From Streptomyces sp. NBC_01262 (lineage in GTDB: Bacteria > Actinomycetota > Actinomycetes > Streptomycetales > Streptomycetaceae): 64,000 nt of DNA. The stretch's first letter is position 1. Each line of letters begins with the position of its first letter. The notes under the pieces were generated by a model. It had not been told where the DNA came from and did not search any database. It was given only the letters and a program-made list of their open reading frames with translations. Positions 1 to 14,719 of this stretch are shown here, one piece after another. A program made the position numbers and the translations under genes. The stretch covers positions 8,414,001-8,478,000 of the forward strand of contig NZ_CP108462.1 in assembly GCF_036226365.1 (NCBI RefSeq), written 5' to 3'.

Positions 1-777
<777 letters not shown>

Positions 778-781
<4 letters not shown>

Positions 782-1929
782 GCGTCACCGCAGCCAAGGG
801 ATTCACGGCGGCAGGAATCGCCGCCGGGATCAAAGAGAACGGCAACCCGGACCTGGCCCTCGTGGTCAACAACGGGCCGCGCCTGGCCGCCGCCGGTGTC
901 TTCACCTCCAACCGCGTCAAGGCCGCACCGGTCGTGTGGTCCGAGCAGGTCGTCAAGGGCGGCGTCGTGAGCGCGGTCGTCCTCAACTCCGGCGGCGCCA
1001 ACGCCTGCACCGGCCCGCTGGGCTTCCAGGACACCCACGCCACGGCCGAGAGGACGGCCGAGGCCACTGGGGGCAGCGCGAGCGAGGTCGCGGTGGCGTC
1101 GACCGGGCTGATCGGCATCCGGCTCCCGATGGACAAGCTGCTGCCGGGAATCGACAAGGCCGCCACCGAACTCTCCCCGTACGGCGGTGAGAAGGCCGCC
1201 ATCGCCATCAAGACCACCGACTCCGTCCACAAGACCGCCGTCGCCGAGGGCGCGGGCTGGACCGTCGGCGGCATGGCCAAGGGCGCGGGCATGCTCGCCC
1301 CCGGCCTGGCCACCATGCTGGTCGTCCTCACCACCGACGCCGACCTGGACGCGGCCACCCTGGACAAGGCGCTGCGCGCCGCGACCCGTACGACCTTCGA
1401 CCGGGCGGACTCCGACGGCTGCATGTCGACCAACGACACCGTGCTGCTGCTCGCCTCCGGCGCGTCCGAGGTCACCCCCGCCTACGACGACTTCGCCGCC
1501 GCCGTCGAGAAGGTCTGCGCCGACCTGGCCCGCCAGCTCATCGGCGACGCCGAAGGCGCGTCCAAGGACATCAGGATCGAGGTGGTGGGCGCGGCGAGCG
1601 AGGACGACGCGGTCGAGGTCGGCCGTTCCATCGCCCGCAACAACCTCCTCAAGTGCGCCCTGCACGGCGAGGACCCCAACTGGGGCCGGGTGCTGTCCGC
1701 GATCGGCACGACCGCCGCGGCCTTCGAGCCCGACCGGCTGAACGTGGCCATCAACGGGGTGTGGGTCTGCAAGAACGGCTCGGTCGGCGAGGACCGCGAC
1801 CTGGTCGACATGCGCTACCGCGAGGTGCACATCACCGCCGACCTGGCGGCGGGCACGGACACCGCCACCATCTGGACCAACGACCTGACGGCGGAGTACG
1901 TCCACGAGAACAGCGCGTACTCGTCATGA
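778..1929 (+). CDS. argJ: Bifunctional ornithine acetyltransferase / N-acetylglutamate synthase
   Basis: ArgJ recycles the acetyl group from N-acetylornithine to glutamate, closing the cyclic arginine pathway. The 383-residue product has the normal length. The precursor is expected to cut itself between Ala178 and Thr179 within LAPGLATML, the threonine becoming the catalytic N-terminal nucleophile of the beta chain. The motifs MAKGAGM and the C-terminal ENSAYSS are typical. The GTG start follows GAAGGAG at good spacing. The stop overlaps the argB ATG by four bases, so translation is probably coupled. Confidence 0.95.
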
Positions 1930-2855
1930 GCACTACGCGCAAGCACACCGCCCTGCCCAAGGCCGAGATCCTCATCGAAGCGCTGCCCTGGCTCACCCGC
2001 CACAACGGCAAGATCGTCGTCATCAAGTTCGGCGGCAACGCCATGATCGACGAGGAGCTGAAGGCCGCCTTCGCGCAGGACGTGGTCTTCCTGCGGCAGG
2101 CCGGTCTCAAGCCGGTCGTCGTCCACGGCGGCGGCCCGCAGATCAACGCCCAGCTCGACCGGCACGGCCTGGTCAGCGAGTTCAAGGCGGGCCTGCGGGT
2201 CACCACGCCCGAGGCGATGGACGTCGTACGGATGGTGCTGGCCGGGCAGGTGCAGCGCGAGCTCGTCGGCCTGCTCAACCAGCACGGGCCGCTCGCGGTC
2301 GGCATGACCGGCGAGGACGCCCACACGATCACCGCGACGCAGCACTTCCCGCAGATCGACGGGGAGTCCGTGGACATCGGCCGGGTCGGCGAGATCACCG
2401 CGATCGACACCGGCGCGATCGAGGCGCTGCTGGAGAACGGCCGGATCCCGGTCGTCTCCTCGATCGCCCGCAGCGCCGAGGACAACCACGTCTACAACGT
2501 CAACGCCGACACCGCCGCCGCCGCGCTGGCCGCCGCGCTGGGCGCCGAGACGCTGATGGTCCTCACCGATGTCGAGGGCCTCTACGAGGACTGGCCCAAC
2601 AGCGACGAGGTGATCAGCCGGCTCACCGCCGCCGAGTTGGAGAAGCTGCTGCCCGAGCTGTCCAGCGGCATGGTCCCGAAGATGGAGGGCTGCCTGCACG
2701 CCGTGCGCAACGGGGTCAACACCGCCCGCGTCATCGACGGCCGGGTCGCGCACTCGATCCTTCTTGAGATCTTCACGAACGACGGCATCGGCACGATGGT
2801 CGTGCCCGACGAGCCGAGCGACCAGCCGAACGGAACCGAAGGGGGACGGTCATGA
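1926..2855 (+). CDS. argB: Acetylglutamate kinase
   Basis: ArgB phosphorylates N-acetylglutamate on its gamma carboxyl, the second and usually feedback-controlled step of arginine synthesis. The 309-residue protein shows the nucleotide-binding VIKFGGNAM near residue 34, the substrate-binding [10 protein letters not shown] near residue 70 and a late [12 protein letters not shown] segment, all hallmarks of the amino-acid kinase fold. The N-terminal helix ahead of the kinase core fits the hexameric arginine-inhibited type, which is an inference. ATGA overlaps join it to argJ upstream and argD downstream. Confidence 0.95.
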
Positions 2856-4054
2856 CCAACCAGGAGTTCGCACAGCGGTGGCAGGGCTCGCTGATGAACA
2901 ACTACGGCACCCCGCGGCTGCCCCTGGTACGCGGCGAGGGCGCCAGGTTCTGGGACGCCGACGGCAACGAGTACCTGGACTTCCTCGGAGGCATCGCGGT
3001 CAACGCGCTGGGCACCGGGCACCCGGCGGTCGTGGAGGCGGTCTCCCGGCAGATCGCGACGCTGGGCCATGTCTCCAACTTCTTCATCGCCGAGCCCACC
3101 CTCGCGGTGGCCGAGCGGCTGCTCCAGCTCGCCGGCCGGCCCGGCCGCGTACTGTTCTGCAACTCCGGCGCCGAGGCCAACGAGGCCGCCTTCAAGATCG
3201 GCCGGCTCACCGGGCGTACGCACATGGTGGCCACCACCGGCGCCTTCCACGGCCGGACCATGGGCTCCCTCGCCCTGACCGGCCAGCCCGGCAAGCAGGA
3301 CGGCTTCCACCCGCTGCCCGGCGAGGTCACGCATGTGCCCTTCGGGGACGCCGAGGCGCTGCGGGCGGCGGTCACCGAGCGGACGGCCATGGTCATCATC
3401 GAGCCGATCCAGGGCGAGAACGGCGTGGTCGTGCCGCCCACCGGCTATCTGCGGGCGGCCCGCGAGATCACCCGGGCGACCGGCACCCTGCTGGTGGTCG
3501 ACGAGGTGCAGACCGGCATCGGCCGGACCGGCCACTGGTTCGAGCACCAGACGCAGGGCGTCGAGCCCGATGTCGTCACGCTGGCCAAGGGGCTGGGCGG
3601 CGGGCTGCCGATCGGCGCGACGCTGGCCTTCGGCGACGCGGCGGAGCTGCTGACGCCCGGCAAACACGGCACGACCTTCGGCGGCAACCCGGTCGCCTGC
3701 GCCGCCGCGCTGGCGGTCCTGGACACCATCGAGGCCGACGGGATCCTGGACAACGTCAAGCACCAGGGCGAGAAGCTGCGGGAGGGGATCGAGTCGCTGG
3801 ACCACCCGTTGGTCGATCATGTGCGCGGCGCGGGCCTGTTGCTGGGTATCGTGCTCACCGAGCCCCTCTCCTCCCAGGTGCAGCAGGCGGCTCAGGAAGC
3901 CGGGCTTCTGGTGAACGCCGCCGTGCCGGATGTGGTGCGGCTCGCGCCTCCGCTGATCGTGGGGGACGCGGAGACGGACGCGTTCCTCCGGGCCCTGCCC
4001 GGTATTCTGGATTCTGTATACGATGTACACAGTGAAAAGCGAGCCGGAGAATGA
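2852..4054 (+). CDS. argD: Acetylornithine aminotransferase
   Basis: This PLP-dependent class-III aminotransferase converts N-acetylglutamate semialdehyde to N-acetylornithine. The 400-residue protein has the full family length. Visible motifs are [12 protein letters not shown] (phosphate binding), [20 protein letters not shown] (cofactor aspartate) and [12 protein letters not shown], in which Lys246 should form the Schiff base. It overlaps argB by four bases and ends seven bases before the preferred argR start, completing the operon. ArgD enzymes sometimes also act in lysine synthesis, which cannot be judged here. Confidence 0.95.
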
Positions 4055-4061
4055 CACGACG

Positions 4062-4604
4062 ATGAGCGAGGCCCAGGCGCAGCAAAGCGGCGGGGGCGGC
4101 CAGTCCGTACCGCAGACCCGCACGGCCCGCCACCGCCGGATCGTGGACATCCTCAACCGGCAGGCCGTGCGGTCGCAGAGCCAGCTCGCCAAACTGCTCG
4201 CCGACGACGGGCTGAGCGTCACCCAGGCGACGCTCTCACGTGACCTCGACGAGCTGGGCGCGGTCAAGATCCGCACCAACAACGGCGAGCTGATCTACGC
4301 CGTGCCCAGCGAGGGCGGCTACCGCACCCCGCAGGCCCCCCTCGGCGAGTCCGTCAAGGAGGAGCGGATGAGCAGGCTGGCCGGCGAACTGCTCATCTCC
4401 GCCGAGGCGTCGGCGAACCTGGTCGTCGTCCGCACCCCGCCCGGCGCCGCCCAGTTCTTCGCCTCCGCGATCGACCAGGCCGAGGTCTACGACATCCTCG
4501 GCACCATCGCCGGCGACGACACCGTCATGCTCATCAGCCGCAGCCCCAGCGGCGGCCAGGCCCTCGCCGACCACCTGCTGCGGCTGGCGGCCGGCGAGCG
4601 CTGA
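4062..4604 (+). CDS. argR: Arginine repressor ArgR
   Basis: ArgR is the hexameric repressor that binds ARG boxes when arginine is abundant. The winged helix-turn-helix is at about residues 20-85 ([12 protein letters not shown], then [18 protein letters not shown]), and the arginine-binding oligomerisation domain ends with a [12 protein letters not shown] motif. I chose the ATG at 4062, preceded by GGAGA. An in-frame ATG at 4023 inside argD would add 13 residues but has no ribosome-binding site. The AT-rich stretch before it (about 4010-4035) could hold an autoregulatory ARG box, but I see no clean palindrome. Confidence 0.93.
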
Positions 4605-5457: not shown

Positions 5458-6279
5458 CTAAGCCGTATAGCGCCCGAATCCGCTCGTCTGCCAGGCGCCG
5501 CCGTCCGAGGTGACCGCGAAGCCCTCCGCGCCGGGCAGTTGCTCCAGCCAGACGCGGGCGCGGTCGCCGCCCATGGCGTACGCGGCCGTGGCCCACGCGT
5601 CGGCGTCGGTGAGGCCGGAGCAGACGACGGTGACCGAGGCCAGGTCGGTGACCGGGGGCTCGCCGGTGTTGGGGTCGAGGATGTGGCAGCCGCGCTCGGC
5701 GGGGCCGGAGGTGGCCACGGCCAGTTCGTCATGGGCCTGGACGATGGCGGCCAGCCCGCCGGGGTGGTGCGGGTCGGAGATGCCGATCCGCCAGGGGCCG
5801 CCGTGCAGCTGGATGTCGCCGCCGCCGTTGAGGCAGACCGACTCCGCGCCCGCCGACACCAGCATCCGGGCCGCCCGCTCCACCGCCCAGCCCTTCACCA
5901 GGCCGGTCGGGTCGAAGGCGCTGCCGCCGTCGTTCTCCATGTCGTAGCGCGCGCTGAACCAGCCGTCGCTGAGCCGCTCGGCCTCCTCGCACAGCCGCAG
6001 CACCTCCCACACGTCCGGGTCGCAGCGCGACAGTGCGAGCTCGTCGCGGGCCAGCCGGCTGATCTGGCTGTCGGGCAGGAAGGTGGAGAACACCTCGTCC
6101 ACCCGGTGCAGCCAGCACACGGCGGCGTCGAGTGCCGCCCGTGTCCTGGCCGCCCCGGCCCCGGACCCGGCCCCGCGCACGTCGAAGGAGAACACCGTGC
6201 CCATGGCGTGCTCGACGTGGCGGAGCCGGGAGTCCTCGGGGGCGGAGGCGGAGGTGGAGGTGCTGGATTTCTGAGTCAT
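5458..6279 (-). CDS. apbE: FAD:protein FMN transferase (ApbE family)
   Basis: ApbE enzymes take FMN from FAD and attach it covalently to a Ser/Thr of FMN-binding domains outside the membrane. The 273-residue protein shows the opening motif HAMGTVFSFDV, the central NGGGDIQ (metal/FAD site) and HILDPNTGEPP followed by DAWATAAYAMG, in the usual family order. There is no obvious signal peptide or lipobox, unlike many ApbE proteins; a Ser/Thr-rich head precedes the domain. It starts five bases after the stop of an FMN-binding protein gene, so its substrates are very probably the two FMN-binding proteins of this cluster. Confidence 0.9.
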   Translation of the reverse strand: MTQKSSTSTSASAPEDSRLRHVEHAMGTVFSFDVRGAGSGAGAARTRAALDAAVCWLHRVDEVFSTFLPDSQISRLARDELALSRCDPDVWEVLRLCEEAERLSDGWFSARYDMENDGGSAFDPTGLVKGWAVERAARMLVSAGAESVCLNGGGDIQLHGGPWRIGISDPHHPGGLAAIVQAHDELAVATSGPAERGCHILDPNTGEPPVTDLASVTVVCSGLTDADAWATAAYAMGGDRARVWLEQLPGAEGFAVTSDGGAWQTSGFGRYTA

Positions 6280-6283
6280 GACG

Positions 6284-6838
6284 TCAAAGTCCCGCCTTGT
6301 CGATCGCGCTCTGCAAGGACTTCTTGTAGGCCTCGCTGGTGTAGCTCGCCCCGGAGACGGCGTCGACGTTCGCGCTCTGCGCGGTGACCACCTCCTGGTT
6401 GAGCTTGGGAACGGCGTCGCCGCCCGGACCGGTGGTGGGTGCCTGCAGGGTCTCCGCCTTGGTGATCTTGCCGCCGCTGACCGTGAGCTTCACCTGGACG
6501 GCGCCGTACTGGGCGTCCACGGAGTCTCCGGTGACGGCCTTCGTGGCAGTCGAAGTCCCGGAAGACCCGGAAGTCCCGGAAGTCCCGGAGGACCCCGCGG
6601 CGGACTTCGTCGGCAGGGGACCCGAGGACGGCTCGTCCTGCTGGGCGCCCTCGCCGCCCTGGGCGTCCTGGGCGTTCTGCGAGGCCGTCGCCGACGCCGC
6701 CCCGGTGCCCGCCGGGGCCTGCGTGGCGGCGCTGGCCGAGCTGTCGGCCGGCTGCTTGAGGGCCAGCAGCAGGACGACGCCGGAGACGGTGGCCGCTGTG
6801 CTGAGCAGGATCCGGCGCAGCGGGTGCTTCTTCTTCAC
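6284..6838 (-). CDS. Membrane-anchored FMN-binding domain protein (copy B)
   Basis: A 184-residue protein with a basic start (MKKKHPLRR), one membrane segment at about residues 10-27, a Ser/Ala/Gly-rich linker to about residue 85, and a C-terminal FMN-binding domain. The flavinylation motif reads DAVSGASYTS near the end; FMN should attach to the Ser after SGA, where Thr is more usual. The GTG start follows GAGGTGAG. It lies between reductase B and apbE in one transcription unit. It should carry electrons on the outer face of the membrane; the final acceptor is unknown. Confidence 0.85.
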   Translation of the reverse strand: MKKKHPLRRILLSTAATVSGVVLLLALKQPADSSASAATQAPAGTGAASATASQNAQDAQGGEGAQQDEPSSGPLPTKSAAGSSGTSGTSGSSGTSTATKAVTGDSVDAQYGAVQVKLTVSGGKITKAETLQAPTTGPGGDAVPKLNQEVVTAQSANVDAVSGASYTSEAYKKSLQSAIDKAGL

Positions 6839-6888
6839 TGACTCTCACCTCGTGAGGTTGCTTTCACGGCTTCACAGCTTTCACGGCC

Positions 6889-8253
6889 TCAGAACTCGAA
6901 GGACTCGTGGTGGATACGGCGTTCCGGGACACCGGCCTCACGGAGTGTGTGGAACCACTCCGTCGTCAGCCCCGGAGGGCCGCACAGAAAGACGTCGTGC
7001 CGGTCGAGGTCCGGCAGCCGCGCCTTGAGCCCCTCCGCGGTGAACTCCGGCCGGGATCCGTCCGGGGCGTTGACGGCGTACATCAGCCGCGCCCCGCGGT
7101 CCTTGGCGATGCCCTTCAGCTCGCCCCACAGCGCCAGGTCGTCCGTCGACTTGGCCCGGTACAGCAGCGTCAGGTCGCCGGGCGCCGCGGGCAGCGTCTC
7201 GAACAGCGCCCGCATCGGGGTGATGCCCGCGCCGGCGGCCAGCAGCAGCACCTTGCCCCGGGTGCGGCGGGCGGCGGTCAGGGCGCCGTACGGGCCCTCG
7301 GCCCACACCCTGGTGCCCGGCTTCAGGCTCGCCAGCGCCGCGCTGTGCCCGCCGACCGCCTTCACCGTGATCCGCATCAGACCGGGCCGGGGCGGGGCCG
7401 ACAGGGAGTACGGATTGGCGCTCCAGCGCAGCCCCGGGGTGAGGAACCGCCACCGGAAGAACTGCCCGGCCTCGGCGCCGAGCCGGTGCAGCTTGCGGCC
7501 GCCGATGAGTACGGACACGATGCCGGGCGCCTCCTCGACCGTCACCACGACCTTCATCCGGTGCCGGAGGTTCAGCCGGACCGGGGTGAGGACGCGGTAC
7601 CAGATCACCAGCGCCGTGACCGTGAGGTAGAGCGCGTACCAGGCGGTGCGCGCGACGGTGCCACCGGCGAACTCCGCGCCGGTGGACAGCTGGTGCCAGA
7701 AGGTGAGGAAGACCGCCGCGTAGGTGAGGAGATGGACGTAGTACCAGGTCTCGTAGCGCATTCTTCTGCGCGCGGCGTTCGCCGAGACGAAGCCGATCAG
7801 CAGCAGCAACAGAGTGCCCGCGAACGCCTTGATCATGTCCGGGTAGTCGGTGACCACGGTCACGGCCTCGGACACGACACCGGTGTTGGCCAGCTCCGAG
7901 TAGCCGTAGATGGTCAGTACGACATGGGCGACGACCAGGCTGATCGCGTAGCGGCCGCTCATCGCGTGCCAGCGCGCGACCCGGTCGGAGCCGACACGTT
8001 TCTCCAGGGCGGGCACGCGGGCCATCTGGGCGACGACCAGCGCGATCGTGTACGCCCCGAGCAGCCCGGTGATCCGGCCGGCGGCGATCAGCTGGTTGGC
8101 GGTGCCGACGACGTTGGGGGTGTTCTCCCACCACATCCACAGCACCAACGCCGCGCCGGCCCAGGCCAGCGCGACCAGCGGCACAGCGGGCGAGCGCTGC
8201 GGACGGATCCGGCGCATCGCGAGCCGTCGGCCGGCCCGGCTGTTCTGAATCAT
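6889..8253 (-). CDS. Transmembrane ferric-reductase-like flavocytochrome (copy B)
   Basis: A predicted electron-transfer protein of about 454 residues. Residues 20-230 hold about six membrane helices of the ferric-reductase type, with histidines in RWHAMSGR, VAHVVL, YYVHLLTY and FWHQL suited to bind haem. The C-terminal half is an NAD(P)H:flavin reductase module: NPYSLSAPP (flavin), LLLAAGAGITPMRALF (nucleotide) and VFLCGPPG, ending in HHESFEF. It should move electrons from cytosolic NAD(P)H across the membrane, probably to FMN-binding protein B next door. An upstream GTG at 8307 is possible, but the ATG at 8253 follows AAGGGGA. Confidence 0.85.
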   Translation of the reverse strand: MIQNSRAGRRLAMRRIRPQRSPAVPLVALAWAGAALVLWMWWENTPNVVGTANQLIAAGRITGLLGAYTIALVVAQMARVPALEKRVGSDRVARWHAMSGRYAISLVVAHVVLTIYGYSELANTGVVSEAVTVVTDYPDMIKAFAGTLLLLLIGFVSANAARRRMRYETWYYVHLLTYAAVFLTFWHQLSTGAEFAGGTVARTAWYALYLTVTALVIWYRVLTPVRLNLRHRMKVVVTVEEAPGIVSVLIGGRKLHRLGAEAGQFFRWRFLTPGLRWSANPYSLSAPPRPGLMRITVKAVGGHSAALASLKPGTRVWAEGPYGALTAARRTRGKVLLLAAGAGITPMRALFETLPAAPGDLTLLYRAKSTDDLALWGELKGIAKDRGARLMYAVNAPDGSRPEFTAEGLKARLPDLDRHDVFLCGPPGLTTEWFHTLREAGVPERRIHHESFEF

Positions 8254-8337
8254 CGTCAACGGCCTGATCCCCTTCCCGCACAGCTGCCCGGAGCGCCTCT
8301 CCGGCACCCGTCCGTACGCGCGCGATGGCGGAGTGAC

Positions 8338-8862
8338 TCAATTCCCCGATTTATCCAATGCGCTTTGCAGGGATCTGGTATAGCCGTCGCTGGTGTAGGT
8401 CGCACCGGAAACGCTGTCGATGCTCGCGCTCTGCGCGGTCAGCGCCTCCTGCTTCAGCACGGGCACCGCGTAGTCGTTGATCTGCTGGTCCTTGGGGTTG
8501 TCCTCGGGGACCTGGAGCACGTCGACGGCGGTCAGCTTGCCTCCGGTCAGCGTGATCTGGACCTGCACCGGGCCGTAGCGGGTCTGGATCGCGTCACCGG
8601 TGATCTTCTTCGTGACTGCCGCCGCGCCGGACGAAGCGGACGCGGACGCCGAGGCAGAGGCCGAGGAGGACGGCTCCGCCGTGCCGGGCGTGGCCGACGG
8701 TGTCGCCGGCTGCGCGGCCGCCTGGGGCGTCACCGTCGTCTGGGTGTGCGGCTTCAGCGCCAGCAGCGCCGACACACCCGACACGGTCGCGACGGTGCCG
8801 ATCAGGACGCGGCGCAGCGGACGGGTACGGAAGGGATTCATCGCGGGCCTCATGGGCTTCAT
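8338..8862 (-). CDS. Membrane-anchored FMN-binding domain protein (copy A)
   Basis: A 174-residue paralogue of copy B: a basic N-terminus, one membrane segment (about residues 20-36), a low-complexity Ala/Ser linker with a run of SA dipeptides, and an FMN-binding domain. The flavinylation site reads DSVSGATYTS, the standard form with Thr as FMN acceptor. The gene starts ten bases after the stop of reductase A, so the pair should be cotranscribed. Like copy B it should sit on the outside of the membrane and accept electrons from the neighbouring flavocytochrome after ApbE has loaded FMN. Confidence 0.87.
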   Translation of the reverse strand: MKPMRPAMNPFRTRPLRRVLIGTVATVSGVSALLALKPHTQTTVTPQAAAQPATPSATPGTAEPSSSASASASASASSGAAAVTKKITGDAIQTRYGPVQVQITLTGGKLTAVDVLQVPEDNPKDQQINDYAVPVLKQEALTAQSASIDSVSGATYTSDGYTRSLQSALDKSGN

Positions 8863-8872
8863 GACGGGCGGC

Positions 8873-10246
8873 TCACAGCTCGAAGGACTCGTGGTGGATG
8901 TGACGGGCCGGCACCCCGGCCGCGATCAGCGCGTCGTACGCCGCCTCGGCCATCCCGGACGGCCCGCACAGATACACGTCGTGCGCGGCGACGTCCGGCA
9001 GTACGTCCCGCAGCCCGGCCGCCGTGATCGGGACCCGGGCGCCGTCGGGACCGTTGACCGCGTAGAACAGCCGTGCGCCGCGCGCCGCCGCTATCGTCTC
9101 CAGCTCGGTGCGCAGGGCCAGGTCCTGAGCGGTGCGGGCCCGGTACAGCAGCGTCAGGTCGCCGGGCGCGGCCGGCAGCGACTCGAACAGCGCGCGCAGC
9201 GGCGTGATGCCGACCCCGCCCGCCAGCAGCAGCACCTTGGCCCTGCTGCGGCGCCCGGCGGTCAGCGCCCCGTAAGGCCCCTCGGCCCACACGCGAGTGC
9301 CGGGGCGCAGGGTGGCGACGGCGGCGCTGTGGCCGCCGAGCGCCTTGACCGTGATGCGCAGGGCGTCCGGCCGGGGCGCCGCCGACAGGGAGTACGGCGA
9401 CGAGGTCCAGCACAGCCCCGGGGCCAGGAACCGCCAGCGCAGGAACTGCCCGGACTCGGCGGCCAGTTCGCCCAGCCGCCGGCCCTGCACGACCACCGAG
9501 AAGACCCCGGGCGCCTCCGGGATGACGGCCGCCACGAGCAGGCGGTGCCGCAGGTTGAGCCGTACGGGAGCGAGCACCCGGAACCACAGCACCAGGGCGG
9601 CGACGCCGAGATACAGCGTGTACCAGGCGGCCTGCGCAAGCGTGTTTCCGACGAACTCGCTGCCCAGGGAGAGCTGGTGGAAGAAGGCGAGGAAGAGCGC
9701 GGCGTACGTGAGCAGATGCAGGTAGTACCAGGTCTCGTGGCGGACCCGCCTGCGCACGGCGCGCGCGGAGACGATGCCGACGGTGAACAGGATCAGGGTG
9801 CCGAAGGTGGCCTTGAGCATGTCGGGGTAGTCGAAGACGATGCTCACCGTCTCCTCCCACACCGAGGAGTGGCCCTGGACCGCGTAGCCCCACACGATGA
9901 GCACGACATGCGCGACGAGCAGGCAGACCGTCCAGCGGCCGGCCATGGCATGCCAGCGCGCCACCCGGTCGCTGCCGACCCCGCGCTCCAGGACGGGCAC
10001 GCGGGCCATCAGGGCGACCAGCACCGCGCAGGCGTAGCCGCTGAGCAGTCCGGCGATCCGGCCGCCGTCGGTCAGCCAGTCGGCCTGGCTCACGACCGAG
10101 GGCGTGTCCTGCCACCACAGGGCGAGCACGGCGGCGGCCCCGGCCCAGATCAGGGCGAGCACGAGGGGAGCGGGTGAGCGGCGGGGCCGCGCCGGGGCGG
10201 GCGCGGCGGGGCGCCGGGTCCGTGGGGGTTCGTGGACGGTGGCCAA
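8873..10246 (-). CDS. Transmembrane ferric-reductase-like flavocytochrome (copy A)
   Basis: About 457 residues, closely similar to copy B along its whole length: RVGSD-type RWHAMAGR, AHVVLIVWGY, YYLHLLTY and FFHQLSLG in the haem-binding helices, then SSPYSLSAAP (flavin), LLLAGGVGITPLRALF (nucleotide) and VYLCGPSG, ending in HHESFEL. Same inferred role as copy B. It is the first gene of the reverse unit that ends with apbE. I favour a TTG start at 10246, seven bases after GGAAGG; a GTG at 10285 would add 13 residues. Its upstream region faces a response regulator across a repeat-rich gap. Confidence 0.85.
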   Translation of the reverse strand: MATVHEPPRTRRPAAPAPARPRRSPAPLVLALIWAGAAAVLALWWQDTPSVVSQADWLTDGGRIAGLLSGYACAVLVALMARVPVLERGVGSDRVARWHAMAGRWTVCLLVAHVVLIVWGYAVQGHSSVWEETVSIVFDYPDMLKATFGTLILFTVGIVSARAVRRRVRHETWYYLHLLTYAALFLAFFHQLSLGSEFVGNTLAQAAWYTLYLGVAALVLWFRVLAPVRLNLRHRLLVAAVIPEAPGVFSVVVQGRRLGELAAESGQFLRWRFLAPGLCWTSSPYSLSAAPRPDALRITVKALGGHSAAVATLRPGTRVWAEGPYGALTAGRRSRAKVLLLAGGVGITPLRALFESLPAAPGDLTLLYRARTAQDLALRTELETIAAARGARLFYAVNGPDGARVPITAAGLRDVLPDVAAHDVYLCGPSGMAEAAYDALIAAGVPARHIHHESFEL

Positions 10247-10290: not shown

Positions 10291-10346
10291 CTCTGAGGTA
10301 GCTCTGAGAGAGAAAAAACCCGACCCCATTCAGAGCGAACTCAGAG
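10291..10346. promoter_or_regulatory. Paired direct repeats between the flavin module and the two-component system
   Basis: CTCTGAG occurs at 10291 and again at 10302; its inverse TCAGAG occurs at 10330 and 10341, the second as CTCAGAG. Within each pair the repeats are exactly 11 bases apart, one helical turn, as OmpR-class regulators prefer. The two pairs face opposite directions, so one regulator dimer could control each divergent promoter. The downstream pair lies where a -35 would be for a transcript starting close to the regulator ATG, with TAGACC at 10355 as a possible -10. Confidence 0.7.
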
Positions 10347-10371
10347 AAATCTGATAGACCCTGTACTGACC

Positions 10372-11127
10372 ATGGAAATCCGACGAGCGGCCTCCGCCCG
10401 CATCCTCCCCGCGCTCACCCGTCCGGACGGCACACCCGTCCGGATCCTTGTCGTGGACGACGAGCCGGACCTGACCGAGGTGCTGTGCGGCACGCTCCGG
10501 TACGAGGGCTGGCTGGTGTGCGGCGCGACCGACGGCGCGTCCGCCGTCGCCGCCGCCCGCGACTTCGAGCCCGACGCGGTGATCCTCGACGTCATGCTCC
10601 CGGACTTCGACGGCCTGACCGTCCTGCGCAAGCTGCGCGCCGAGCGCCCGCACGTCTGTGTGCTCTTTCTCACCGCCCGCGACTCCGTCGAGGACCGCAT
10701 CGCCGGGATCACGGCGGGCGGCGACGACTACGTCACCAAGCCTTTCAGCCTGGAGGAGGTGCTCGCCCGGCTGCGGGGCCTGCTGCGCAGGGCGGGTATG
10801 AGCCGGGAGGTCTCCGACGACTCGCTGCTGACCGTCGGCGACCTGGCCATGGACGAGGAGGCCCGCGAGGTCACCCGGGACGGCGAGGTCATCGACCTGT
10901 CGCCGACCGAGTTCGAGCTGCTGCGCTTCCTCATGCGCAATCCGCGCCGGGTGCTCAGCAAGGCGCAGATCCTCGACCGCGTCTGGTCGTACGACTTCGG
11001 CGGGCAGGCGCATGTCGTCGAGCTCTACATCAGCTACCTGCGCAAGAAGATCGACGCCGGGCGGCAGCCGATGATCCACACCGTGCGCGGCGCGGGCTAC
11101 ATCCTCAAGCCGGTGCCTGTCCCGTGA
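10372..11127 (+). CDS. OmpR-family response regulator
   Basis: A 251-residue DNA-binding regulator. The receiver domain (about residues 22-135) has the acidic pair in VVDDEPD, the phosphoacceptor Asp73 in VILDVMLPDFDG and the conserved Lys123 in TKPF. The C-terminal winged helix follows (LSPTEFELLRFLM and VVELYISYLRKKID). The ATG has no ribosome-binding site and may begin a leaderless transcript. It overlaps the kinase start by four bases. The repeats just upstream, placed between it and the flavin reductase operon, suggest that it controls itself and that operon. Confidence 0.92.
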   Translation: MEIRRAASARILPALTRPDGTPVRILVVDDEPDLTEVLCGTLRYEGWLVCGATDGASAVAAARDFEPDAVILDVMLPDFDGLTVLRKLRAERPHVCVLFLTARDSVEDRIAGITAGGDDYVTKPFSLEEVLARLRGLLRRAGMSREVSDDSLLTVGDLAMDEEAREVTRDGEVIDLSPTEFELLRFLMRNPRRVLSKAQILDRVWSYDFGGQAHVVELYISYLRKKIDAGRQPMIHTVRGAGYILKPVPVP

Positions 11128-12614
11128 TACGCCGCGCCGCCGCCGGGCTGCGCCCGCACACACTGCGCTCCCGGCTGACCCTGGGGCTGGTCGTGCTGCT
11201 CGCGGTGAGCTGCGCGGCGGTCGGTGTGGCGGCGGTGATCGCGCTGCGCGGCTTCCTCACCGACCGGGTCGACCAGCAGATCAGCGAGGCCGGCAGCCGC
11301 TTCCCGATCAGCCTTGAGCGCGGTACGGCCGTGTTCGACGACCGCGATGGCGGCGACCACGACGGCGACGAGTACGCCGACACCCGCAGCCAGGCCACCG
11401 GCACCTTCGGCGCGCGGCTGAAGAACGGCACGGTCACCGATCAGGCCGTGGTGCGCTCCGGCACCGACACGACGGTGGCGCTGACCGCCGCCGACAAGCG
11501 GGTGCTGGCCGCCCTGCCGGTCGACAACCGCCCGCGCAACATCGAGCTGTCGGCGCTCGGCGACTACCGTGCCGTGTCCTGCGAGGGCAAGGACGGCGAT
11601 GTCCTGATCACCGGTCTTCCGATGGAAGGGGTCGAGCAGACCGTCCACGAGCTGGAGCTCGTCCTCGTGGCCGTCTTCGGCGGCGCCCTCCTCGTGGTGG
11701 GCGTGGCCGGGGCGCTGTGGGTGCGCTGGTCGCTGCGGCCGCTGCGGGAGGTGGCCGCCGCAGCGGTGGCCGTCACCGAGGTGCCGCTCGACAGCGGCGA
11801 GGTGGCGCTGTCCGCCCGGGCCCCGGCGACCGACCCGCGCGGCGAGGTCGGCCAGGTCGCCGCCGCGCTCAACCTCATGCTCGGCCACGTCGAGGATGCC
11901 CTGTCCAAGCGCCATCGCAGCGAGCAGCGCCTGCGCAGCTTCGCCGCCGACGCCAGCCACGAACTGCGCACGCCCGTCGCCACGATCCGGGGCCACGCCG
12001 AACTGGCCATGCGGCACCCCGGCCCGGTGCCGCCCGAGGTCGCCCGGGCCCTGGAGCGGGTCGCCGCGGAGTCCGGGCGGATGGGCGAGATGGTCGACGA
12101 CCTGCTGCTGCTCGCCCGCCTGGACGCGGGCCGCCCGCTGGAGAGCGTGCCCGTCGATCTCACCCGGCTCGTCCTGGACGGGGTCGACGACGCCCGCGCC
12201 GCGGGGCCGGACCATCGCTGGACCCTCGACCTGCCTGAGGAGCCGGTCACCGTGTCCGGCGACGCCCACCGCCTCCAGCAGGTCGTCGCCAACCTGCTCG
12301 CCAACGCCCGCCTGCACACCCCGGCCGGCACCAAGGTGTCCGTAAGCCTCACGGAAGAGCCCGGCACCATCGCCCTTCGGGTCGCCGACGACGGCCCCGG
12401 CGTCCCCGACGACGTACGGCCCACCGTCTTCGAGCGCTTCACCCACGCCGACCGCCGCCGCCCCGGCGCAGGCAGCGGCGCCGGCCTCGGGCTGGCCATC
12501 GTCGCCGCCGTCATCGACGCGCACGGCGGCACCGTGGAACTGGACAGCCGCCCCGGGGCGACCGCGTTCACGGTGCGGCTAGGGTCTGTCCGGCGGATCG
12601 CGGCCCCGGCCTAG
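11124..12614 (+). CDS. Sensor histidine kinase
   Basis: A 496-residue partner of the upstream regulator. Two membrane segments (about residues 17-38 and 180-200) flank an extracytoplasmic sensor of roughly 140 residues rich in Asp/Gly (DDRDGGDHDGDEYAD), which could bind metal; that is an inference from composition. A HAMP linker leads to the dimerisation motif DASHELRTP with His279, and the ATPase domain has NLLANARLHT, DDGPGVP and GSGAGLGLAI. The last dozen codons lie inside a perfect 20-bp inverted repeat, so the natural C-terminus may have been altered. Confidence 0.92.
   Translation: MIRRAAAGLRPHTLRSRLTLGLVVLLAVSCAAVGVAAVIALRGFLTDRVDQQISEAGSRFPISLERGTAVFDDRDGGDHDGDEYADTRSQATGTFGARLKNGTVTDQAVVRSGTDTTVALTAADKRVLAALPVDNRPRNIELSALGDYRAVSCEGKDGDVLITGLPMEGVEQTVHELELVLVAVFGGALLVVGVAGALWVRWSLRPLREVAAAAVAVTEVPLDSGEVALSARAPATDPRGEVGQVAAALNLMLGHVEDALSKRHRSEQRLRSFAADASHELRTPVATIRGHAELAMRHPGPVPPEVARALERVAAESGRMGEMVDDLLLLARLDAGRPLESVPVDLTRLVLDGVDDARAAGPDHRWTLDLPEEPVTVSGDAHRLQQVVANLLANARLHTPAGTKVSVSLTEEPGTIALRVADDGPGVPDDVRPTVFERFTHADRRRPGAGSGAGLGLAIVAAVIDAHGGTVELDSRPGATAFTVRLGSVRRIAAPA

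Positions 12615-13159: not shown

Positions 13160-14719
<1,560 letters not shown>

Follow-up and report, generated by a model that had tools for sequence, protein, structure and literature searches.

Two predicted flavin-based electron-export modules share one ApbE beside a two-component system in Streptomyces sp. NBC_01262

MsrQ-like flavinylation-associated gene clusters have been described 1797 times, mainly in Actinobacteria (Meheust et al. 2021, PMC8238504). They encode a six-helix PF01794 membrane protein with two histidine pairs, extended in most clusters by a C-terminal PF00175 domain, together with an anchored FMN_bind protein whose acceptor motif receives flavin mononucleotide (FMN) and an adjoining ApbE. 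One carrier, SaFMN3 from Streptomyces azureus (PDB 8p2a), is flavinylated by ApbE, has a potential of -184 mV and is reoxidised by O2; its authors assumed that flavin transfer is extracellular (PMC10339131). ApbE typically sits in the periplasm, anchored to the membrane, and few cytosolic examples are known; a 2025 review calls obscure both the supply of FMN to extracytosolic flavoproteins and the route by which flavin adenine dinucleotide (FAD) reaches ApbE (PMC12052999). Here we analyse a 64,000-nt window of the soil actinomycete Streptomyces sp. NBC_01262 (NZ_CP108462.1, 8,414,001-8,478,000; coordinates below are window positions), in which two reductase–carrier pairs and one ApbE lie beside a divergent two-component system (TCS). 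We think it fairly probable that the locus encodes two transmembrane electron-export modules under this one TCS, with carriers that are loaded in the cytosol by the single ApbE and exported by a twin-arginine translocation (Tat)-type route.

The five genes occupy 10246-5458 on the minus strand, where the original prediction had placed them, in the order reductase A, carrier A, reductase B, carrier B, ApbE (Table 1). As expected for a single operon, the gaps between them are short (31, 84, 50 and 4 bases). The reductases are 63% identical, and both have the six-helix PF01794 domain with two histidine pairs and the C-terminal PF00175 domain of the MsrQ-like class; reductase A has an additional sub-threshold Pfam match to PF08022, and reductase B starts at the ATG at 8253, with an in-frame TTG at 8259 as a possible alternative. 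In an AlphaFold model of reductase B (predicted local distance difference test (pLDDT) 85.8, predicted template modelling score (pTM) 0.82), six long helices precede an FNR-like domain; haem histidines H96/H110 lie in helix 3 and H174/H187 in helix 5. All four histidines are present in 100% of the 117 relatives aligned (35 A-type and 82 B-type), which rules out the loss of haem ligands that the original prediction had named as one of the findings that would count against it. The closest solved structures to this model are SpNOX (top match; TM-score 0.71 by query and 0.80 by target, at 16% identity), then NOX2, NOX5 and DUOX, and the window reductases have the FRD and FNR folds and the four haem histidines of the NADPH oxidase (NOX) family.

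The carriers each contain a single FMN domain with an intact DxxSGA[T/S] motif: DSVSGAT with Thr148 as the acceptor in carrier A, and DAVSGAS with an acceptor Ser in carrier B. The Thr:Ser ratio at this position is 130:13 in B-type relatives and 32:3 in A-type relatives, and a Ser acceptor can be used by ApbE at lower yield (PMC12052999). The SaFMN3 domain matches carrier A at E 5e-25 and carrier B at E 5e-24, with up to 92% identity to B-type relatives versus 66% to A-type. A-type carriers always have one FMN domain and B-type carriers one to four (three or four per chain at loci L041, L034, L037, L043 and L054); neither window carrier has the several domains per chain of the SaFMN3 type. With an anchored FMN_bind protein carrying the acceptor motif next to apbE, the block belongs, as judged from its domains and motifs, to the MsrQ-like flavinylated systems.

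In the mechanism that we propose, each reductase would take electrons from NAD(P)H at its cytosolic FAD domain and carry them across the membrane by way of two stacked haems b. On the outer face the partner carrier, tethered to the membrane and bearing covalent FMN, would accept them and hand them to an acceptor in the envelope; one ApbE would load both carriers. Haem and FMN occupancy and the course of the electrons are predicted here from protein sequences and a structural model. Electron export from cytosol to envelope through ApbE-loaded carriers, as first suggested in the original prediction, is the best reading of the locus, and it agrees with the MsrQ-like class (PMC8238504) and with flavinylated SaFMN3 (PMC10339131).

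Relatives were gathered from named genomes, the genus and 150 family genomes. They fall into three recurrent layouts: TCS, reductase A, carrier and ApbE; reductase B, carrier and ApbE without a TCS; and the combined TCS–A–carrier–B–carrier–ApbE order of the window, so that both the five-gene order and the single-pair versions sought by the original prediction exist. In the reductase tree, clade B has support of 100/100, and the A copies lie across the branch together with older relatives. A tree that holds the two window copies together is rejected by the approximately unbiased (AU) test (p-AU 1e-79). Across 14 combined loci, A and B reductases of the same locus share 61% identity, versus 76% for A–A and 81% for B–B comparisons between loci, a pattern also seen in the carriers. 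A and B are best described, on this phylogeny, as old paralogous lineages, each also found alone in other genomes.

The two lineages differ in what accompanies them. In the family survey, with A and B assigned by bit score and a kinase counted if within 5 kb, a divergent kinase lies beside 31 of 33 A copies, one of the two exceptions being at a contig end. Seven of the 23 B copies stand behind an A copy and the other 16 are alone, with a kinase beside none of the 16; more distant reductase copies have one in 34 of 47 cases. The regulator therefore goes with A, and this linkage is probably ancestral. A neighbour comparison, run with a codon-composition filter, shows that combined and B-only loci have common neighbours and that A-only loci do not: the module adjoins argR/argD and argH in the window and in most of these Streptomyces loci, but in 0 of 19 A-only loci. 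In the window the flanking arginine biosynthesis genes lie at 3-4601 and 13160-14716 (argC(partial)-argJ-...-argD-argR and argH), a setting that is possibly only positional.

The question of why there are two copies, raised in the original prediction, can now be answered in part: module A, with its TCS, has been joined with a module B whose locus is conserved. The age of the lineages suggests distinct roles, and we propose that A, as the regulator-linked module, and B, as the conserved-locus module, would not be redundant; in this lineage they are joined in one operon. The combined locus may descend from a combined ancestor that elsewhere lost parts, or A may have been inserted before B; the ApbE tree is too weakly supported to choose. 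In Streptomyces sp. NBC_01481 (L024, 2499-9800), two full modules follow one another, both equipped with an ApbE of their own and neither with a TCS or CTCTGAG box, a possible intermediate.

Beyond what had been noticed at this locus before, the analysis adds the TCS (10372-12614) with its repeats, the neighbouring arginine genes and the lack of an export signal on ApbE. The gap between reductase A and the regulator gene contains direct repeats of CTCTGAG with an 11-base period. The motif was defined on the window and then sought at other loci, allowing at most two mismatches: it occurs in 14 of 14 combined and 18 of 19 single TCS-linked loci (32/33), versus 1 of 75 loci without a TCS, with essentially none expected. 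There are four matches in the window, versus 0.49 expected, and the sole perfect match in the 9.7 Mb genome is the best site, in the A/regulator gap. Genome-wide there are 30 matches, versus 11 for a reversed control, and those outside the locus are scattered save for a CTCTGAT run at 7.06 Mb. That run (G000:C1:7064020-7064059; L139 4020-4059) has four CTCTGA[T/G] half-sites, repeating every 11 bases, upstream of a gene for a secreted protein (L139 4321+) and is possibly the operator of a related regulator. Direct repeats of this period are typical for OmpR/PhoB-type regulators, and we therefore predict that the encoded regulator binds the box and controls both its own gene and the operon.

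Table 1 Features of the two-module locus and its regulatory region (window positions).
Feature	Position	Strand	Description
Reductase A (FRedA)	8873..10246	-	457 aa, TTG start; six-helix bis-haem FRD domain and cytosolic FAD/NAD(P)H domain; PF01794 2e-17, PF00175 1e-12
Carrier A (FmnA)	8338..8841	-	PLRR N-terminus and hydrophobic helix, Ser/Ala/Pro linker, one FMN_bind domain; PF04205 1.5e-10
Reductase B (FRedB)	6889..8253	-	454 aa, architecture as reductase A; PF01794 4.5e-17, PF00175
Carrier B (FmnB)	6284..6838	-	PLRR and hydrophobic helix, long low-complexity linker, one FMN_bind domain; PF04205 1.7e-10
ApbE FAD:protein FMN transferase	5458..6279	-	273 aa; PF02424 2.6e-44, above cut-off; without signal peptide or lipobox
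OmpR/PhoB-type response regulator	10372..11127	+	PF00072 and PF00486; divergent from the operon, 125 bases away; orthologue likewise divergent at TCS-linked A loci
Sensor histidine kinase	11124..12614	+	Two helices, extracytosolic domain, HAMP, HisKA, HATPase (Pfam)
Predicted response-regulator box	10291..10308	+	CTCTGAGGTAGCTCTGAG; direct repeat, 11-base period, perfect match to CTCTGAG-N4-CTCTGAG
Second predicted box	10329..10357	-	Three half-sites at 11-base period: CTCTGAGTTCGCTCTGAA at 10346-10329 and an overlapping CTATCAG half-site

The sensor domain gave no hint of a ligand in the form of a conserved cysteine: none is present in its loop in 33 kinase orthologues. CutRS, which has two conserved sensor-domain cysteines and a TAWATAAA site, is ruled out as the regulator, since the window system has neither and its predicted site is the CTCTGAG repeat. 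We also rejected the other described Streptomyces coelicolor systems, a review of which does not mention flavin or ferric genes, and nothing relevant linking CTCTGAG with Streptomyces regulators was found among the titles and abstracts returned by a literature search. The conserved TCS and its box offer a first handle on the cues to which these widespread, functionally unassigned electron-export modules respond.

The NBC_01262 genome has further ApbE loci. A third complete reductase–carrier–ApbE module lies at L114 (G000:C1:4534765-4537307), without a TCS. A group of genes at about 1.129-1.132 Mb (G000:C1; L127 3282-6283) resembles the NuoF variant of the MsrQ-like clusters: its ApbE, again without a signal, neighbours a short membrane protein of the ferric-reductase type and a second protein of NuoF/SLBB-like appearance. 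Another ApbE, at about 4.450-4.454 Mb (G000:C1; L128), lies with an OmpR-type regulator and a membrane protein of the ferric-reductase type, and a weak CTCTGAG-like repeat is present at 4454468.

An extracytosolic location, marked by a signal peptide or lipobox, is typical but not universal for ApbE, and the window ApbE has neither mark. No hydrophobic export segment precedes the ApbE domain in any of 97 neighbouring ApbEs, by a measure that does flag the carriers, and a scan for hydrophobicity and lipoboxes found no export signal in the 4 ApbEs of the NBC_01262 genome or in 29 sampled across the class. Because it lacks an export signal, the window ApbE most likely attaches FMN in the cytosol, after which the folded, loaded carriers would leave through a Tat-type signal anchor. 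If carriers are flavinylated before export, no export of FAD is needed. For actinomycete ApbEs in general, we regard the chances as evenly balanced that they work in the cytosol on carriers that then exit folded by Tat, the reverse of the textbook periplasmic or extracellular route.

The carrier N-termini are consistent with such an exit. Those of the two window carriers are short and basic, with PLRR followed by one hydrophobic helix, and show the Tat-substrate features of RR ahead of a moderately hydrophobic segment and a basic residue after it. The twin arginine precedes the helix in 113 of 118 carriers at a fixed distance of 18 residues ahead of LK, a residue pair that was part of the search pattern. 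It is this constant although Lys outnumbers Arg (159 versus 92) across the seven upstream residues. PLRR[VI]L[IL] fits the full consensus [S/T]RRxFLK in part only. Several observations weigh against our reading. Tat is not universal: RH replaces the twin arginine in four carriers and AR in one, and the carrier of a distant actinomycete (L164), whose ApbE is of the cytosolic type, is a lipoprotein with RK. The constant RR–LK spacing could instead reflect packing of the helix against the reductase, and the structure model of carrier A is poor (pLDDT 58.5) and was not used. The RH carriers are of B type (L013, L020, L022 and L030), and their loci also lack an adjoining ApbE. The signal-less actinomycete ApbEs and their Tat-like carriers make the order of flavinylation directly testable in Streptomyces.

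The last electron transfer is where the main rival explanations diverge, with Fe(III) reduction and NOX-like O2 reduction foremost, and the neighbouring genes settle neither. Our guess is that the acceptor would be Fe(III) or other envelope oxidants, with O2 reduced in a side reaction. An envelope ferric (or cupric) reductase for metal assimilation, with the carriers turning external Fe(III) or ferric siderophores into Fe(II) for uptake, is a tentative alternative: VIT1 iron transporters occur in 153 of the 1797 MsrQ-like clusters (PMC8238504), and an apbE mutant of a bifidobacterium fares worse when ferrous iron is chelated (PMC5449479). Beside this module, however, there is no recurrent iron transporter, siderophore or Fur-type gene; the neighbour comparison likewise found no recurrent methionine sulfoxide reductase, and the neighbours that do recur are arginine biosynthesis genes.

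We consider it unlikely that reductase and carrier act as a bacterial NADPH oxidase that makes extracellular superoxide or peroxide from O2, for signalling, antagonism or as an oxidase. The structural matches to SpNOX, NOX2, NOX5 and DUOX are what such an enzyme would predict, and reduced SaFMN3 is reoxidised by O2 at 1.2 per s (PMC10339131). NOX enzymes, however, do not need a separate FMN carrier, and a covalent carrier with one to four flavins suggests delivery to another acceptor. Reactivity with O2 is, moreover, general for exposed flavins, which weighs against this explanation.

Less probable still is that the two pairs work in series or as one complex, with one reductase feeding both carriers in a longer wire. 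The operon, regulator and ApbE common to both pairs and the up to four FMN domains in B carriers of relatives would suit it, but each pair is found alone in other genomes and each carrier has co-diverged with its own reductase. A recent local tandem duplication with an effect on dosage only, for which adjacency and identical gene order might speak, is very improbable, the tree and AU test having refuted it for the window lineage: of the 'tandem paralogues' in the original prediction, the paralogy stands and the local duplication does not.

Two parallel modules with one ApbE and one TCS, our preferred reading, can finally be set against the described systems. MsrPQ methionine sulfoxide repair does not fit: no MsrP molybdopterin reductase is encoded in the block (the rest of the genome was not searched for MsrP), and MsrQ lacks the FAD/NAD domain that both window reductases carry as PF00175. 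In Listeria, the PplA/FmnB route is driven by NADH and exports electrons to a flavoprotein on the cell surface, which an ApbE relative makes; it uses Ndh2, quinone and an extracytosolic FmnB, whereas the window encodes haem–FAD reductases and a signal-less ApbE. A cytosolic ApbE without a signal peptide also occurs in Klebsiella pneumoniae, where it serves a soluble fumarate reductase (PMC12052999); that target stays in the cytosol, whereas those of the window ApbE are predicted to be exported. SpNOX and the NOX oxidases share the six helices, two bis-His haems and FAD/NAD(P)H domain, but at 16% identity, and the window reductases are accompanied by an FMN carrier. SaFMN3 is a B-type member of this carrier family, with up to 92% domain identity, an N-terminal helix and an ApbE neighbour, and differs from the window carriers in their one FMN domain each and in the acceptor Ser of carrier B.

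No paper was found on the paired arrangement, its TCS and box or the signal-less actinomycete ApbE, in a literature search that was thin on subscription papers and supplements. The closest counterparts are the MsrQ-like clusters, which share the PF01794 transmembrane protein with C-terminal PF00175, the FMN_bind protein and apbE; the window differs in its two old pairs on one ApbE, divergent TCS, conserved box, signal-less ApbE and absence of VIT1. The type of machine is already known, and what is new relative to searchable papers is the paired arrangement, its predicted control site and the proposed loading step inside the cell.

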